Positions 8,889 to 42,444 of a stretch of 64,000 nt of DNA are shown piece by piece; within the stretch, counting starts at the first letter, position 1, and the number at the start of each line of letters is the position of its first letter. This DNA comes from Dysidea avara. Lineage: Eukaryota > Porifera > Demospongiae > Dictyoceratida > Dysideidae. The position numbers and the translations under genes were made by a program. The stretch lies in the NCBI RefSeq assembly GCF_963678975.1, contig NC_089280.1, positions 15,141,280-15,205,279 on the forward strand. Direction: 5' to 3'. Below the pieces are notes generated by a model. It saw only the letters and a program-made list of their open reading frames with translations. It was not told where the DNA came from and made no database searches.

Positions 8889-9007
8889 CAGTCCGAGCAG
8901 TAAGGGAGATGTTAGATCAGACCTCTGACACACCCCAGTTTATTGAGGTGTTGAAATATAACTGCTGTTAACTGATTTACTTTGATAGTGTTCGATATTT
9001 GAACAAC

Positions 9008-10617
9008 ATGTTATCTACGTTGTCAAGGCGAATTCTGAGGACAACCACGTTGCAGTTGTCTTTCAAAAGATGCCGTTCTGGAACTTCTACTGGTAGGTTG
9101 ATGCAAGAGGACCCTTTAGAACATTTTTACTACGACAAAGTAATTGTTTCTGGTGTGCCCTCTTCCTTTGTTAAAAATTCATTGAGAGTACATGAACCCG
9201 ATGAGCCAATAAGTTTGGTGAAGGCACGCTATCAACACGCGAACTACGCTTGGAAAGTCAAGCAACTTGTACAAGACATTGTGTACACTCCAGAAGATGA
9301 AAATTATCCCGATAGCGTGTTTGTGGAAGACCCGGCAGTTGTATTCGATGGCACAGCACTGCTGACAAAAATTGGTCATCCGTCACGGATAGGGGAGCCA
9401 CAAAACATAAGGGGCGTGCTAGAGTCTTTGGATTTACACATAGTGGAACTAAGCAAACTGTCTCCAACAGCTACAATGGATGGTGGAGATGTACTGTTTA
9501 CTGGCAAAGAATTTCTAATTGGATTATCACGGCGTACAAATAAGGTATTATACCCTTTTTGAGTTTCAAATTGCCAACATTTGTGAGGCAATTAGTCCAT
9601 GTGTCAGAAATAAAATACCTTACACTAGTAGACAACCCAAAGTGTTAAATTTATACCCATGTAGAGGTGTAATTGTGTAGCTGTTCAATCCAACCTAATC
9701 AAAACTTTTAACACTCTTTTGTGATGTGGTTTGTGGTTTGTTGGTAATTTAATTGGTTGCTAATGGATTGCTGGTTAACTATATAAGCCACCTGCAATTA
9801 GTAACTAGACTACAATGATGAAATGAGCATGACCTCTGCATGCTGGTCAGTATAAAATTTTTATTAACGAGTTATTTATTTATTTACTTGTCAACCTTTT
9901 GTTGTTTGTGAAAATTGCCAACATCACTAAGGATATCACTGTAGAATTTGTAATGCGTTACCACGTACCATAGTAATGACCCCCTTTGAATAAGAGTTAC
10001 ATGTTTTAAGCCAGGTGGAAGTATTGAAGAAAGTTTATCATTCTTAATAAACACTGCTATTGTTGCAAAGTCACGCATCAGAAGCCACCCTCTCACTCTT
10101 GGTTGTTATAGTAACCAGCATTCAAATTGTGCATGAATATCCTAAAATCAATATACTCTGTTCAAATTACTACCACTGTGTAATTCTGTAAACTGTAAAA
10201 CTTATTTTTAGTGTATAATACATTCTACAGGAAGCCATTGAAGCCTTTGCCCAAGTGTTTCGTGATTACCCAGTCACAGCCATTACAATTCAATCAGAAG
10301 TACTTCACCTCAAGAGCATGAGTTCCATGGCTGGTGTGGGAGTGATTGCAATTGGTGACACTCCAGCTGGACGACAAGCTTGGGATGAAATAGAAAGGAA
10401 GGCACATTACAAATATGACCGACTATCATTTCCAGATGAAAATGCTGCCAACTGCTTGTTCATCAATGGTACTATTTTCCATGTTCCACAAGAGGAATAT
10501 CCAAATAGCTATCACGTGTGGGAAAATTATAACAGATATCCTAAAGTTGAGCTACCAAACAGTGAATTTTCTAAAGCAGATGGGTCATTAACTTGTACTT
10601 CCATACGCATCAATTAA
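9008..10617 (+). CDS. DDAH: Dimethylarginine dimethylaminohydrolase, copy A
   Basis: Hydrolyses asymmetric N-methylated arginines to citrulline and methylamine, relieving inhibition of nitric oxide synthase. Two exons, 9008-9544 and 10231-10617, phase 0, give 307 residues, about 20 longer than the human enzymes. Catalytic elements are all visible: acidic pair in DSVFVEDPAVV, Asp in MDGGDVLFTG, His in LHLKSMSSMAG, and the nucleophile Cys in SLTCTSIRIN. The extra N-terminus (MLSTLSRRILRTTTLQLSF, then further Arg and Lys with no acidic residue for about 30 positions) looks like a mitochondrial presequence, whereas human DDAH is mainly cytosolic. The ATG at 9008 was chosen as the first in frame after the TATA box. 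A tandem copy with the same intron position follows. Confidence 0.93.
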
Positions 10618-11749
10618 GTTTCACAGACTTATTTTCCTTTTATGCTGAATGTCACATATTATTTATTGCAACTCAATGTTTTGGACTTATGTACAGGTTT
10701 ATTATGAGATCATGGTATTAACTCTTGATGGTATGATATTTAGTAAATTTATTGGCAAAGTATATGGTAATAAAAAAAAGTTCAGTATATATCAATATTA
10801 ATTATTTTTAAATTGATAATTAACACAGCTAGCCCTCTTATCCTTTGAAGTGCAAAATTGAAACTGTTTATCATGTACCACCTATTAGAGGTAACCTGAT
10901 CCATCAGAATATTCTGTGATGCAGGGCTTCCTAAGTATGATATTCATGTAAAGATGTGGTATATATATTGCCTAGAGCATAAAATGCATGAGAATCAACA
11001 TAATCTAGTTACATGAAAGTGGTTGCATGTTAATTAGCTACACTGTCATCTTGGTTTAATTGTACTGATAATATGATCAATCTTCAAATAGACTTACCCA
11101 GTTACCAAAATGGACAGTAAAATCAACAAGGTCATAAGTGATCACTAACATTTTGCTACTTAGCACATCAGTGAAGTGTGCTGTGTGTTGACTCTGGAGA
11201 TGTGCACTGCTTATCTGACCATTTGTGAGATTTGCAGTGTGTTGGCTCCCCTTTGAGTGATGTAGATCATATCTGCTATATATAGGAGGTCACTAGTCAG
11301 CATTTTATCCAGGACTTCATCTCCCAAAGATTATAACAGCTCGGAGACTGGTTCTATGATGGTACCACAGTACCAGATTTCCAATATGCCTGGTCTTCTT
11401 CAAACACATGGGTTTTAAACTGCGTTTTGTAGTTCATGATTGATCCATTCACAGATAGCTACCGGAGTACCATTAGAGAGTGGCCACTGGGCTGGAATGA
11501 GAGATAGATATTATTCTCCCCTTTAATGTCCATAAACGAGACTAGCATACCTCGAATACTACCAAGAGTTCATACTATGTACATGTATATAAATTATGAA
11601 CTCTTTGAGTGCAGTAAATGTATGTAGCTCACGTGAGTGATCGTCCGAAAGTATTAGAAGCACACATAAGTTCACCGTATGTCGAGCCCTACGTACTAGT
11701 ACAGGCATAGATACAAGATAGTAGATCTTAATGCTATTATAGTGAAATA
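10618..11749. other. Spacer between the tandem DDAH genes
   Basis: No exon seen. Contains a short palindrome of the CAAGAGTTCATA family at 11563-11607. The start codon of copy B at 11750 has no obvious TATA box. Confidence 0.6.
11563..11607. repeat. Short palindrome related to the 17760 MITE ends
   Basis: CAAGAGTTCATACTATG on the left is mirrored by AATTATGAACTCTTTG on the right with almost no interior. It matches the terminal repeat of the element at 17760-18225, as if only the two ends remain. Confidence 0.6.
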
Positions 11750-14700
11750 ATGCTATTGTCGTCAAGGCGAATCGTGAGAGCGACCGCCTTGTCGTTTAGA
11801 AGATGCCGCTTTGGAACATCCGGAAGGCTAAAAGGTGATGCTTTAGAACACTTTTACTACAGTAAATTGATTGTGTCTGGTGTACCAACATCATTTGCCA
11901 GCAAGTCAATAAGAAAGAATGAACCCAGTGAGCCTATTGATTTAGTAAAGGCTCGTTATGAACATGCAAATTACGTTTGGCAAATCAACCAACTTGTAAA
12001 AGATATTGTGTATGTGCAAGAGGATGAAAATTATCCAGATTGTGTGTTTGTGGAAGATCCAGCGGTTGTGTTCAATGGTACGGCACTGATAATGAAACTT
12101 GGTCACCCATCACGGGTTGGAGAGTCACAGAACATGAAGTGTGTGTTGGAGAGTTTAGATTTACACATAGTGGAACTGAGCAAACTCTCTCCAACAGCTA
12201 CAATGGATGGTGGAGATGTACTTTTCACTGGCAAAGAATTTCTGATTGGGTTATCGGCACGTACCAATAAGGTAGCATTATGTAGTTGTATTACCATGCA
12301 TATTGGTACAGACAATGCCTTTGGTGCTCATATCTGAAAGCTCCTGGTACAGACCATGTGCAACATGTTCTGCCGTGGCTTCAGGTTTCATGATGTTACT
12401 TACTTTTATTTACCTTTAATTACTTAATTATATGTAAAACAAGGCCCAAATTGTTATGGGAACTACACATTGGGAATTTATGGTTCCATATATAGTACCA
12501 TCTATCTACTATGTAAAGCTGAAATGATGTCTGTCTGTCCATGATCCAGGTAACTCCTGAACAGGAGCACTGATTGACCCCGGATTTGATGCATTTTAAT
12601 CGGCATCAAGCTGGCACCAGGGAGTTTACTAATAGAAATTTCTAGCATGCCCCATGTGCTGTACAGTGCCAAAAAACCGTCATTACCGCAAGTTCATAAA
12701 CAGGTTTTTGAGCTCAGCTACTTCCCGCTCGCTACATGGAATGACAACACCGTTGATCTACATTATAATGAACACCCCTTGGTGGTAGTTACACGGCAAT
12801 TTCTACCACTAGGATTTCACTATGGAAAAGAAATCTTCAACATTTTCTGATACATGCCATGCCCACATTTCATCCGTAATTAACTTCAAACTCTACAAAC
12901 CTACTCTCTACCCCAAATTGTATACCTATGGTGGAATTCATGCCTACAACTAATGAGCTAACCTTACAATTCAGCAAAAGAAAGGAAAATTGAAGGTATA
13001 ATATGTGACTGGATTTTGGAAAAACGATCCAAATCGCACATTAGAAGTTCCGAGATAAACAGTTTTAAAGAATTGAAGCCAGCATAACTCTCCAAGGATA
13101 GCAAGCACACGTATGAAATTTACACAAAAGATGCATCAATCTGTTACCTTTCAAGCCACTTCCAGTACTTGTAGCTGCTTGTACAGTTTCCCGCCAAATA
13201 AGATAGAAAATCTGAGCAGTTGGACGAGCGAAGTAGTATCACGAGTGCTCACAAAGGGGTGGAGGCTGGGGGGTGGCGGAGAGGGCAAGAGATAGACCTC
13301 AAAATGGAGGCAGACCACGATTGGAGTCCAGACACGAGATTACAGGGCTGTGCTGGCTCCTTAGTGGCTGATATGTAGCAAAATCAACAGAGAACACGTC
13401 TGGCCAACATTATAAGGCTGTCCACCAGTAAACCACTGACTCTTGCCAAGCCTGGTCCTTCACAAGGCCTGAAACCGCCATTTGAGCACTCCACACCACC
13501 CAGACAAGACGTGTGTAAAAACCAGCCTCGTGTAGTTTGAGTAGTGCTGAGGGTCAAAACTTGTAGTACGATAGTGTAGCTATCCACTGGTGGTGTTAGT
13601 TTGATTTTGCCTGATGTGCGATTTGGATCGGTTCTGTAAAATCTGGTCACATATAATATGAATTTACAAAAACTCACCTTGAAATTCCATTGCTATGTCA
13701 ATATAGTAATGACATCAGATGCATGTGATTGTGTTGAACTATTCTAAACAATGCATTATGATGAAAAGCGAGTTTCTGTATTTCTAGAATGGTAAATAGG
13801 TGGCTTAAATTTTCAGTGATTCTTCCCTACACTAGTACTTTCATCGCTCTATAAAAAAAAACAACAAAAGCACGTATTGATTAGCTATCAGAATATTTGA
13901 GTTGCCAGATGACCGGCATATAATTTTACTAAAATCCCATATCAATACATGCTTTGCACAAAAAGGTACTTTTTAGAATGTGCCACCATGTGAATTTGAA
14001 CCCACAACCTCTTACACGCTACTCAGGACTAACGTAAGCTCATGATAAATCTTGAAGTAACCGAATGATGAGTACTTTGTTTTGAGCACGTAATGTGTTT
14101 ATAGGCACAGGAACTGGCAAGTAATCAGTATGACGGGCAGACAGACAGCTTTATATATGTGTATAGATTTTCCCCATATAGAATGTATGTTTCCCCCTCA
14201 AAAGTCTATTGTGTGCACGTCGTTTTAGCGTTTCCTCATCATACATGGTCTGATCTGTATGTATAAGTACTTGCTTAGCATCATTAATATGTGTTACTGA
14301 CATTGTGTAACTTTTGGATGACACACCTATCCTTGATGTTGTGAACCACTTGTACTGCTTGGCCATTACTACAGAATAGTCTACTTTACCTTCCTAACCA
14401 AGGGTAAGTAGCTAACTCCTTACACAATGCATCTCTCTGAATTTAAAAAAATAACCAAAGCATTTCTGCCTTTGTGCCATGCAGCCACTTGCATCATCCT
14501 ATCTTCTATGTATATGTAGTCCTACACACCACAAAACTTGCTTTGCAGTGTGCACACTTGCAGTGAATGTTATATGCATGTTCTGGAAAGGTTGACTTTC
14601 AGTTCATGTCAATCATGTGATCTTAGTGTAGGTAAGGAACCCAGACTGTTTTTTATAGATTTAGAAATTGACTGGTCGGGCTATTAGTTGCAATATGCTT

Positions 14701-15298
14701 GGAAGAGCATAGCAACTCTAATGATCAAGTGAGATTTGCATTGCTTGAGGTCTTTCTCTAACCATTTCAAGGACTGCTAGCAAGTCTCTTAGTGATTTTA
14801 AAGACCTCATTATCTTCCAAAGATAAAAGCATATTATTATGCATAATTAACCTTGGTTGTAAATTAAGGGTATACATTGGATAACTATGTGATTTGTTTA
14901 CTAAATACACTCCACAGGAGGGCATTGAGGCATTTGCTGAAGTATTCCATGATTATCCAGTTGCAGCAGTTCAGTCAGAAACACTTCATCTCAAAAGTAT
15001 GTGTTCCATGGTTGGTGTTGGAGTGATAGCAATTAGTAGCACTCCAGCTGGACGACAAGCTCAGTATGAAATAGAACAGAAGGCACACTACAAATATGAT
15101 TATCTCATTTTCCCAGATGACGGAGCAGCGAACTGTTTATTCATCAATGGAGTTGTATTACATGCTACACCAGAAGAGTATCCACGTAGTTACCATGTAT
15201 GGTATGATTACAACAGGTATCCTAAGATTGAGGTGCCAAACAGTGAGATGGCCAAGGCAGGTGGATTATTAACATGTTCTTCAATATGTATAAATTAA
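11750..15298 (+). CDS. DDAH: Dimethylarginine dimethylaminohydrolase, copy B
   Basis: Paralogue of copy A with exons 11750-12271 and 14918-15298 (300 residues). The intron sits at exactly the same codon, after RTNK. The active-site set is kept: DCVFVEDPAVV, MDGGDVLFTG, LHLKSMCSMVG, and Cys in LLTCSSICIN. The N-terminus MLLSSRRIVRATALSFRRCR again looks like an import signal, so it was probably present before the duplication. The 2.6-kb intron, against 0.7 kb in copy A, is swollen by nested repeats (about 12500-14165). The stop codon is only 4 bp from the opposing SCFD2 stop, so the two transcripts must overlap at their 3' ends. Confidence 0.93.
12498..14170. mobile_element. Inverted-repeat element interrupted by a second element
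   Basis: Left end around 12498-12540 (ATCTATCTACTATGTAAAG, then GTCTGTCTGTCC) is mirrored at about 14128-14170 (GGGCAGACAGACAGC, then TTTATATATGTG). Another element (13001-13655) sits inside. No transposase frame was recognised. Confidence 0.5.
13001..13655. mobile_element. MITE with TGTGAC-type ends
   Basis: About 655 bp. Left arm 13001-13046 (ATATGTGACTGGATTTTGG, then CGATCCAAATCGCACA) pairs with the right arm 13613-13655. The end sequence is shared with elements at 6269, 21907 and a fragment near 25010, defining a family. Confidence 0.75.
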
Positions 15299-34968: not shown

Positions 34969-35671
34969 TTAGTCTGATTTTGTACAAGTATATTCCTTGA
35001 AATTCTGAGCAGTTAGTGTTGCCCGTATCTTTTCATCCCTCGGCAGCCACCTATGAAAGAAATCTTGGTTGACATAGGTAGACTCCCAGTTCTTAGTAGC
35101 CTCAGTCTGTTTGGTTAACAGCCATGTGGTAAGGATGACTGGATTGTTGTTATCAAGTTGCCTCTGACCAGACCAAGTACAAGTAGAATAAGAATTTCCT
35201 TTTTCCAAGTTGTTATATGTAACAGCCCAGCCTATAGTTCCACCACTCTCTGAACCGTTTTTGTCATATGTGCCTATAAAGAAGTAACATATATATTGTG
35301 GTAGGGTTTCAAAGTGGGAGCACAATCCTATATATATCATGTGAACTGCCAACTACCACAATTTTATGTTCAGTTAATTGTAATCAAAACAACACAAATT
35401 TCAATGCTTACCTCTTAATGTATACCAACACTTAGCATCTCCCACATTTGAATTGTATCTGCCTTCTAACACACCCTCATCACTACTATCATAAATTTCC
35501 ATTACAGAACCTAGTTCATTATACCAATGTCCTACCAGGGAATTTGGTGTGCTTGCTGTATGGCAAAAACAATACAAGTTTAGTAAATATATAGATTTGA
35601 TCACAATTTTTTTATATACTGTACAGTATTATTTAACTCTTAACTTAAGACTTACTCTTCTTGTCAGCCAT
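34969..35671 (-). CDS. Streptavidin-like (avidin family) biotin-binding protein
   Basis: Three exons, 35671-35656, 35555-35412 and 35273-34969, phases 1 and 1, give 154 residues. The fold signature is clear: HWYNELGSVMEI, EGRYNSNVGDAKCWY, GTYDKNG, GTIGWAVTY, TCTWSGQ, TTWLLT and NWESTYVNQDF. It follows streptavidin more closely than chicken avidin. Biotin contacts expected from streptavidin are kept as Asn18, Ser22, Tyr39, Ser41, Ser83, Trp87, Trp104, Trp116 and Asp124. Two differ: Tyr73 replaces Trp79, and Cys85 replaces Thr90. No signal peptide is encoded (MADKKTSTPNSL), so the product should be intracellular unless another 5' exon exists. The first coding exon is only 16 nt. A 25-residue charged tail follows the barrel. 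A decayed partial copy lies 5.5 kb downstream on the plus axis. Confidence 0.88.
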
Positions 35672-36047
35672 TTGCAATTACAATTCCTGGTTCTTATTAA
35701 TGACCGCATTCCTGAAAGACAGATGGGTTTCCATATTAGTATTTCCTAGAATTCTCTCAGCAATAAATCTGTGGTCAAGAAATTATATGGTTGCAGGGCC
35801 ATATATGTGCCTAGTATATACCCAGGAGGTAAACCAGCTATACCATCAAAATCATAATATGAGTGCAGGGTGTTGATACACAATAATACATGCTTTGACA
35901 ACTATTTTATACTGTAGCTATGGAACCTTCCTCAGAGATGTATATAGCCAGGATTTTTAAAACAGGATTTCCAGTAGCATATACAGCTGGGTCTGTGCAT
36001 GTCCATTGTTTGTGGTCATCAGTATCAATGCTTTTATTAAAGATACA

Positions 36048-36480
36048 CTGGCAGGAAACATTCTTCTGTCAGTATCCATCTTATTTATTTAGCAGAAGTG
36101 CTACAGTAAGGAGGTATAAAGTCTAGTTAGACCATCAGGGCTTGGTAAATGCTGGCAGGAAAACATTCTTCTGTCAGTATCCATCCTGTTTATTTAGCAG
36201 AAGCGCTACAGGAAGAGGCAAAACACATTGAACTAGTAATGATGTTTCTCATGATGTACCTATCTATAGAGTAAAGAGGTATAAAGTCTAGTTAGATCAT
36301 CAGGGCTTGGTAAATGCTGGCAGGAAAACATTCTTCTGACAGTATCCATCCTGTTTATTTAGCAGAAACACTACAGGACGAGGCAAAATACATTGAACTA
36401 ATAATGATGATTCTCATGATGTGCCATCTATAGAGTAAAGAGGTTTAAAGTCTAGTTAGACCTTCAGGGCTTGGTAAATG
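36048..36480 (+). repeat. Tandem repeat of about 165 bp, near three copies
   Basis: TGGCAGGAAACATTCTTCTG-type units begin at 36049, 36153 and 36318. The last two are full (about 165 bp apart); the first lacks an internal part. All include TATTTAGCAGAA and GTCTAGTTAGA. Confidence 0.85.
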
Positions 36481-37582
36481 CTCTTACAGTTTTGGAGAAC
36501 AGTTCAGTGGATGCCGGCACACTTGTTACACTACTGACTGATAATTTCAAGCAAATCTAATATGATGGGATACCATGAGATTGGACACCAGTATGATGTG
36601 TGGCATGTCATTTGCAAAAGATACATATCATCTTAATTTGCTATAGAAGTACTCTTTCAGGAATCAAGAAAGAACTTCTGAAACTATCCCAGACACTACT
36701 GTATTTTCATGCAAAAACTTTTTGTGTAAATATTTTTGTATGGTTTATGTAAATGACTGCTCTATTAGAGTAGTTCAATCTTTTATAAAAAAATTTTGTG
36801 CAAGAAATTTTCATACAAATTTTGCATGCAAAAAGTTATTTTATGATGAAAAAAAAAGCTAATTACGATACTTAATTGCTCACTAATAGGAGAATGGTAT
36901 TTTAGCCTTGCCAAAATTATGCAAAAATTAATAATGAAATTGTGCCCCCTTACTGTGATCTACATCACAATTGCATTGATATTATGCACATGTATCCACT
37001 GTGGCTGAGTATGTATACTGAAAACGGTTTATATAATTTAAAGTTGTGGCCCCTTGTGCTGTTATATGTTGCTGGATGGACAAGGGTGGATGCGTCTATG
37101 TCAAACTGATTGCAATTGTGTAAAAGTTAGTAGGTAAAAATCATGTCACCTCTGTATTGCAAGGATGGTAAATTTAGAGATGTTAGCATAAAAAGGAAAC
37201 AAACTAGTGTAAAAATCATTTTTAAAAATTAAAACATGGAAGGAATACAGATCGCTGGAAAAAGTAAGGAAACGAGAGTTTAACAAGCCAGCATGTTAAG
37301 GATCTCTATTTGGACTCAAATAAACATTTACACAGAAGCATTCTCAGTACTTATCTACCCCTGATTTAAGAAGAACTATTGTTTTTTCCTTAGTTCCTAC
37401 CATATCCATTGAGTGATATTTATCCTTCTGGTACAAATGTTCTTGTAACACTTGACTTTGAACTCGGTTCGGTCAAGAAAGTAATGTTAGGCACAAGTGA
37501 CCAGTGATGGTTTTTGGATACCCGATGATGAAGTAAGGGTACTGACTGCAGAAATTAGCATTAACCAATAACTGCTTACTTG

Positions 37583-41420: not shown

Positions 41421-42444
41421 CTCAAATTTCTTGAACCAGCCTGTTGTTATGAGTTGAGAAATTCAATAAGTTGGTATAATCATGATGGATTTTGATGTTC
41501 TCCCAAACTATAAGATTTTTAATATCAATGGCCAAACTGACCATCATAGTTGAGTAGCCAATTATAGGCATTTGCAAATACAATGGCTGAATGTTAGATC
41601 TGTCACATTGTGCATGTGGTAATCTAATGAGTCAACATCAACTGTTTGTGTGTACTGTGTACACAACAAGCTTTTGTGCAGTCTTCTTGTCAGCCATAAT
41701 CGGATGGCTGCAGGTTCGAGGCTGCCCAGGTCCAGTCATGGATTTTTTCTTCTTTCTCCTACTTTTCAAACATACTTAGTGCAGTTAATATAAACATCTT
41801 AGGCCTTTATAAGGCCTTCTGGTATACAGGCTGTGCCTTTACCAGATACTTTAATCATAATCATAATATGCTAGTGGTTATTATAACCCCCTGATCAAAT
41901 ATGTAAATTCCTTTGATCTCCCCATGCAAAGTGCTACATGTCATGTAGCTATATGCCTTCAAATAAAAACAGCTAATTTAAATGCTTTGGTAGGACTTCA
42001 CCTATGCTTTTACAAGAACACCAGTACCACATGTCTGATCAATCTTAGCACAAGTTTCAGTACCATGAGTCTATTGCATGCACCACAACTTGTCATTTAA
42101 AGATGTCCAGGAAGGTTCTCAGTAATGTGTAAATATTTCCTATATTTCTATCTGTTCAGTGGTATGGCCAAAAAATGGGCATTACACCGGCCATTTTAAT
42201 GGGCCTTGAAATTCATCAGTGATATGTAATAATTTTCATGGGTATTTAGCTAGTAATGTGTAGTTATAGAAGACTTTAATCGGGGCCAGCATATCCCTCA
42301 GTTACTGCTGACCATAGATTATAGACACCGGTCTATGCGCTCAGACACAGCTATTCAGAGGCGCGCCGCTATTTCGTGCGGTTGGTCACAGAACTATGGT
42401 ATAGGTCAGAGTTCAGTGCTTCCGCAGTTCCGTCTCAACTTGAG

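Follow-up and report, generated by a model that had tools for sequence, protein, structure and literature searches.

The window analyzed here, a 64,000-nt stretch of the Dysidea avara genome (C9:15141280-15205279; 550.8 Mb in 108 contigs), contains a gene of the avidin family, AVD1, which is almost certainly real. In the reading that we favor, with a probability of roughly one half, its product is a cytosolic biotin trap like the tamavidins of mushrooms. AVD1 belongs to a small duplicated family. AVD1 would be made in the cytosol as a biotin-binding avidin, the cell would store this stable binder as mushroom tamavidins are stored, and an eater or invader of the tissue would be starved of biotin. 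That AVD1 is one of several copies was missed in the initial annotation.

The initial annotation had described an avidin gene with three exons in an animal-type genome and without a signal peptide, and the analysis agrees on each count, placing the gene in an animal nuclear genome. Both introns are GT-AG introns in phase 1 (Table 1), and the coding frame is intact, with no internal stop across 154 amino acids. The gene lies on a 36.7-Mb contig of a genome whose Wnt genes mark it as that of an animal. The MADKK start lacks a hydrophobic stretch, and the same exon is kept in two other copies. An in-frame TAA is found at the third codon upstream of the AVD1 ATG, with no AG in between. The aligned stretch directly upstream of the gene is likely its 5′ leader or promoter, and further upstream there is a tandem repeat of 165 bp in 2.3 copies (window 36105-36482). 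Contamination was considered as the source of AVD1 and is excluded by the 36.7-Mb contig, the introns and the duplicated family.

Table 1 AVD1, its parts and the other family members. Positions given without a contig are those of the window.
Feature	Position	Strand	Description
AVD1	35671-34969	-	avidin-family gene, three exons, 154-residue product
Upstream stretch	35672..35812	-	aligns for about 140 nt ahead of the ATG with the broken copy (L012), partly also with AVD2
AVD1 exon 1	35656..35671	-	16 nt, ATG GCT GAC AAG AAG A (MADKK), phase-1 donor GTAAGT, without signal peptide
AVD1 intron 1	35556..35655	-	100 nt, GT-AG, phase 1
AVD1 exon 2	35412..35555	-	144 nt, N-terminal avidin strands (STPNSLVGHWYNELGS...YTLRG)
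AVD1 intron 2	35274..35411	-	138 nt, GT-AG, phase 1
AVD1 exon 3	34969..35273	-	305 nt, remaining avidin domain and stop codon
AVD2	C9:18.255 Mb		three intact exons, start MADKKT
Broken copy (L012)	C9:17.81-17.82 Mb		contains stops, MADKK exon readable
AVD3 exon 2	C8:1,799.85-1,799.70 kb		C8 cluster
AVD3 exon 3	C8:1,795.68-1,795.39 kb		C8 cluster
Orphan avidin exon 3	C8:1,803.05-1,802.76 kb		

Residues 12-127 of AVD1 match the Pfam Avidin family (PF01382) at 1.3e-25, with a score of 90.5 bits where the cut-off is 24, covering positions 2-116 of the 116 in the profile. The NCBIfam streptavidin model (NF047623) gave 96.9 bits, which is below its equivalog cut-off of 300. Among the best 60 of 165 PDB matches, the best single-domain one was tamavidin 2 (87.6 bits), followed by streptavidin C1 (81.3 bits) and the streptavidins (68-74 bits); two two-domain streptavidin chains rank above tamavidin 2 by summing two stretches. 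Over aligned positions, AVD1 is 42.3% identical to tamavidin 2, 39.5% to streptavidin and 29.5% to chicken avidin, and its most identical non-paralogue among the sequences compared is a bacterial protein (L045), at 43.2% just over tamavidin 2.

Sixteen positions that we take to be the biotin contacts of streptavidin were compared, and AVD1 is identical at 12 of them, differing by N49D, W79Y, A86S and T90C. Exon 2 carries the equivalents of N23, S27, Y43, S45 and V47 together with the Asp at 49, and exon 3 those of W92, W108, W120 and D128 together with the Tyr at 79 and the Cys at 90. These contacts and the identities above bear out the annotated likeness to streptavidin rather than to chicken avidin. 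The Asp at 49 is also present in tamavidin 2 and L045, and the Tyr at 79 in L029, which is of the streptavidin C1 type. The corresponding pocket residues are F43, N49 and F79 in AVD2 and Y43, D49 and Y79 in AVD3. The Trp79-to-Tyr and Thr90-to-Cys changes had been read correctly in the initial annotation, as the alignment confirms, while Asn49-to-Asp was absent from it. Its further remark that the two changes may tune affinity is weakened, because streptavidin C1, in which positions 79 and 90 are Tyr and Ala, has an apparent Kd for biotin of about 3 pM (PMC7924230). The pocket changes in AVD1 are thus a weak argument against tight binding, although W79Y and T90C could reduce affinity in the AVD1 context. 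AVD1 very probably binds biotin, and we infer that it does so tightly.

A search of the same genome returned 8 matches with the PF01382 profile and 10 with the AVD1 protein. The broken copy on C9 was counted as one copy, spread over about 8 kb. Between its parts, beside the broken avidin exon 2, lies a 519-aa frame (L012 3027-4586, minus strand) whose matches to aspartyl protease and zinc knuckle are weak and all under their cut-offs. For the orphan exon 3 on C8, an exon 2 was not found in the 24.5 kb upstream. At one mismatch or fewer, the MADKK-exon pattern turned up three times in eight loci, in every case immediately before an avidin exon 2. The putative 16-nt first exon of AVD1 draws its support from this conservation among copies, and its presence in two further members argues against a chance occurrence. 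By a simple Nei-Gojobori count over 97-154 codons, dN/dS was below 1 for all six paralogue pairs, with 0.375 for AVD1 and AVD2, 0.239 for AVD1 and AVD3, and 0.322, 0.431, 0.545 and 0.229 for the others (range 0.23-0.55). Together, these ratios and the MADKK exon common to AVD1, AVD2 and the broken copy indicate that the first exon without a signal is old and real.

Signal peptides were assessed by eye and with a hydropathy rule of our own rather than with SignalP. By this rule the best hydropathy at the start was -0.06 for AVD1, 0.48 for AVD2 and 3.41 for AVD3, compared with 2.91 for one secreted streptavidin-like protein. The MADKK exon of AVD3 has decayed, with both its ATG and its donor lost, and an in-frame ATG within the former first intron instead reads MINPYILILCCFIAVATA and then NTPSCLVGRWYNELGS (NTPS) into exon 2. 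The MINPYILILCCFIAVATA start appears to be a signal peptide, with the caveat that T-rich acceptor tails, such as the one in which it lies, readily give rise to hydrophobic frames. When a nine-residue hydropathy of at least 3.2 and small residues at -3/-1 near the junction were required, 6 of 7,674 acceptor-like site-frames in the genome's own sequence had such a start (AVD3 locus excluded), and 95 of the 7,674 did so at a laxer hydropathy threshold of 2.0. The initial annotation of an intracellular protein therefore fits AVD1 and AVD2, with their MADKK start and no signal, but does not extend to the whole family, given the signal-like start of AVD3. One family may hold both cytosolic and secreted forms.

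In all likelihood AVD1 itself is not secreted. Secretion would call for an undetected upstream exon that encodes a signal peptide and is spliced to exon 2, which we regard as improbable. AVD3 suggests that the family is able to bear a signal, and the 3′ end of AVD1 intron 1 is an open, hydrophobic frame running into exon 2 (IYLLNLYCFCHTA). That tail has no in-frame ATG, however, and since an open frame alone is frequent at acceptor-like sites (2,945 of 8,190), it is uninformative by itself. Scanning 6 kb upstream of AVD1 for signal exons gave 43 candidates versus none on the opposite strand, but 16 of the 20 listed among them fall in one GT-repeat stretch, and none of the 43 resembles the single candidate found in 5.0 kb upstream of AVD2. 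Still more improbable is that AVD1 is a decaying pseudogene or an unexpressed copy. In favor of this, stops interrupt one sister copy, whose parts are separated by a retroelement-like frame, and another is an orphan exon 3. In AVD1, by contrast, the frame is intact, the splice sites are canonical and the first exon is conserved, and the dN/dS values against AVD2 and AVD3 also speak against decay.

In the reading that we favor, AVD2 retains the cytosolic start, whereas AVD3 appears to have lost it and to be secreted by means of an ATG and hydrophobic stretch located in sequence that the sister copies have as intron 1. A tentative and on balance unlikely extension is that the family can switch between the cytosol and secretion. 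The ancestral copies would have been cytosolic, with a decayed remnant of their MADKK exon still traceable in AVD3, and the loss of that start would have been met by the ATG in the hydrophobic, T-rich intron tail, former intron sequence now serving as a signal peptide. One animal would then possess both an internal biotin trap resembling that of mushrooms and an external one resembling that of egg white. The AVD1-AVD3 pair is a testable case of a change of compartment through a first intron.

The functional comparison is with tamavidins. According to PMC6238071 they are cytoplasmic and poison C. elegans, an Acanthamoeba and Drosophila, the presumed mechanism being that predators are deprived of biotin. 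In the same paper, a fungus producing tamavidin 1 held a nematode population to less than 4% of the control, and tamavidin 1 is described as harmless to two named organisms that produce it; a table there gives it as nontoxic in one of two columns. By analogy, a role of AVD1 in defense against grazers or parasites has perhaps an even chance of being correct. Against such a role, zebrafish without avidin showed no increased susceptibility to one bacterium (PMC13425791). A survey of the family states that the eukaryotic avidins known so far are secreted, possibly avoiding toxicity (PMC8033661). A cytosolic avidin in an animal raises the question of how its own biotin-dependent enzymes are supplied, and AVD1 suggests that a vitamin-trapping defense may be common to sessile animals and mushrooms. 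No report of a sponge avidin was found in the open-licence literature, and relatives may sit in databases under automatic names. Avidin and biotin are absent from the main texts of two papers on prokaryotic genes in Amphimedon (PMC4784904 and PMC13342648).

Several features are shared with tamavidins 1 and 2 of Pleurotus cornucopiae, including the WYNEL.S.M start of strand 1 and the Asp at 49, and with tamavidin 2 the PVILT ahead of W108. Like the tamavidins, AVD1 and AVD2 are without a signal peptide; AVD3 appears to have one. AVD1 differs in having Tyr rather than Trp at 79 and Cys at 90, in its modest identity (42%), and in being an animal gene with introns whose family also includes a sister that is likely secreted. 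Streptavidin resembles it in the pocket, and streptavidin C1 shares the Tyr at 79, but both are secreted products of bacterial one-frame genes with 38-40% identity to AVD1. Vertebrate avidins such as chicken avidin and zebavidin are animal members of the same family. Unlike AVD1 and AVD2, they are secreted, and chicken avidin is only about 30% identical to AVD1. Their gene structure also differs. Zebavidin has four exons of 87, 211, 120 and 42 bp, a structure described as highly similar in all previously characterized avidins (PMC3811995), compared with the three exons of 16, 144 and 305 nt in AVD1. Reckoned from those exon lengths, to within a base or two as their total is not a whole number of codons, the vertebrate intron 2 is placed just after the Trp79 equivalent. 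In AVD1, intron 2 sits at the Gly-Thr junction in YTLRG-TYDK, some 20 residues before that position. The AVD1 introns match neither vertebrate intron 2 nor intron 3, and intron 1, which is similarly placed before the domain, is uninformative.

Bacterial relatives were searched for in GTDB, where the single AVD1 protein gave no matches and a five-row profile gave 19 loci, all Actinobacteria by title; the patterns by design favor streptavidin-like relatives. Among the 18 of these 19 loci that were read, 15 have a secretion-like start, which is absent from L044 and L045, and L031 is truncated at a contig end. In further bacterial genomes, two avidins (L058 and L061) start at the first strand and two (L056 and L057) are secreted, and two Streptomyces plasmids bear another signal-less copy. 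The signal-less actinobacterial avidins (L044, L045, L058, L061 and L063) resemble AVD1 in starting directly before strand 1, with L045 the closest in sequence (43%), and differ in being bacterial, in one frame, and in having Trp at 79 in all five. Bacterial avidins without a signal were already known, as signal peptides are reported for about half of bacterial avidins (PMC8033661). On one Streptomyces plasmid, a group II intron maturase lies 1 kb away from the signal-less avidin. IMG/VR and the phage records gave no matches. PF01382 was found in 1 of 396 genomes sampled from the phylum of the first bacterial centre genome, this being the centre itself, in 6 of 397 from that centre's order, centre included, and in 4 of 394 from the second centre's class, centre included, one of these four being a weak match within a frame of 2,739 residues.

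The tree of 23 rows contains few eukaryotic avidins. It omits other streptavidin-like rows (L028, L031, L032, L033, L036, L039, L040 and L041) and the identical L064, L059 (start missing), L060 (without a blast match), L062 (unlike avidin) and the orphan exon 3, as well as avidins from plasmids of Rhizobium, Xanthomonas, Burkholderia and further bacteria, with rhizavidin kept, and zebavidin, xenavidin, BBP-A, hoefavidin and other solved avidins. The three copies from this genome form one clade (100/100), 11 secreted streptavidins another (84/90), and the five signal-less bacterial rows group at 45/85. The AVD family falls among the streptavidin-tamavidin proteins, nearest to tamavidin 2, with weak support (73/74).

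Two accounts of the origin of the family carry equal weight, and each is tentative. The first, close to what was initially annotated, is a horizontal transfer of a streptavidin-like gene from bacteria, here Actinobacteria, followed by gain of introns and duplication. It agrees with the titles of all 19 profile loci, with the five bacterial relatives that likewise lack a signal, among them L045 as the non-paralogue most identical to AVD1 in the set compared, with the Streptomyces copies on plasmids and, by our own reckoning from the exon lengths in PMC3811995, with the different position of intron 2 in vertebrates. The transfer itself is not borne out by the tree, which nests the family in no bacterial group and joins it by a long branch (1.6) in a sample poor in eukaryotic avidins. 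Nor is it borne out by AU tests, which rejected none of the constrained groupings: with secreted streptavidins (p 0.172), signal-less bacteria (0.206), chicken avidin (0.249), signal-less bacteria and tamavidin (0.273) or L058 (0.336), so that the alternatives are left unseparated at p 0.17-0.34. The bias of the GTDB patterns also counts against it. The second account is vertical descent of an old animal or opisthokont avidin together with the fungal tamavidins, with loss in most lineages. The best tree unites the family with tamavidin 2, and the AVD copies, tamavidin 2 and chicken avidin share one side of a branch (34/13). However, removing chicken avidin from the set lowers support for the pairing with tamavidin 2 to 60/23, chicken avidin has a very long branch (2.45) and low identity, and the exon structure is unlike that of vertebrate avidins.

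Several other features of the window and the genome were recorded. An exact copy of the 16-nt AVD1 exon 1 lies on the minus strand at window 41682-41697, beside a stretch that by eye resembles a tRNA B box. It was considered as the source of exon 1 and set aside. Within 181 kb of the genome's own sequence this is the sole other occurrence of the 16-mer, shuffled versions of the window gave a mean of 0.03 matches with up to two mismatches allowed, and some 120 nt from it a stretch of 50 nt matches another locus (L055) at 90%. Two adjacent genes on the plus strand of the window (8972-10617 and 11732-15298) are similar by their frames; one exon of the latter has weak arginine deiminase/DDAH matches below the cut-off, and its later exons have none. 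The Wnt genes gave 27 exon matches, with tandem arrays on C4, C13 and C15. Read with code 4, a nuclear copy of mitochondrial DNA (L049 4932-9686) shows cox1, nad1, cob and nad4, named by eye, and the 9.9-kb L049 stretch had no Rfam match at the gathering score, which odd mitochondrial tRNAs may escape. Together with the distribution of nuclear-receptor zinc fingers, this copy suggests an early-branching animal such as a sponge. The nuclear-receptor zinc finger gave 17 matches, every one of them on a single contig (C8:26.9-30.4 Mb) and 12 within 0.44 Mb, and this is a local expansion.
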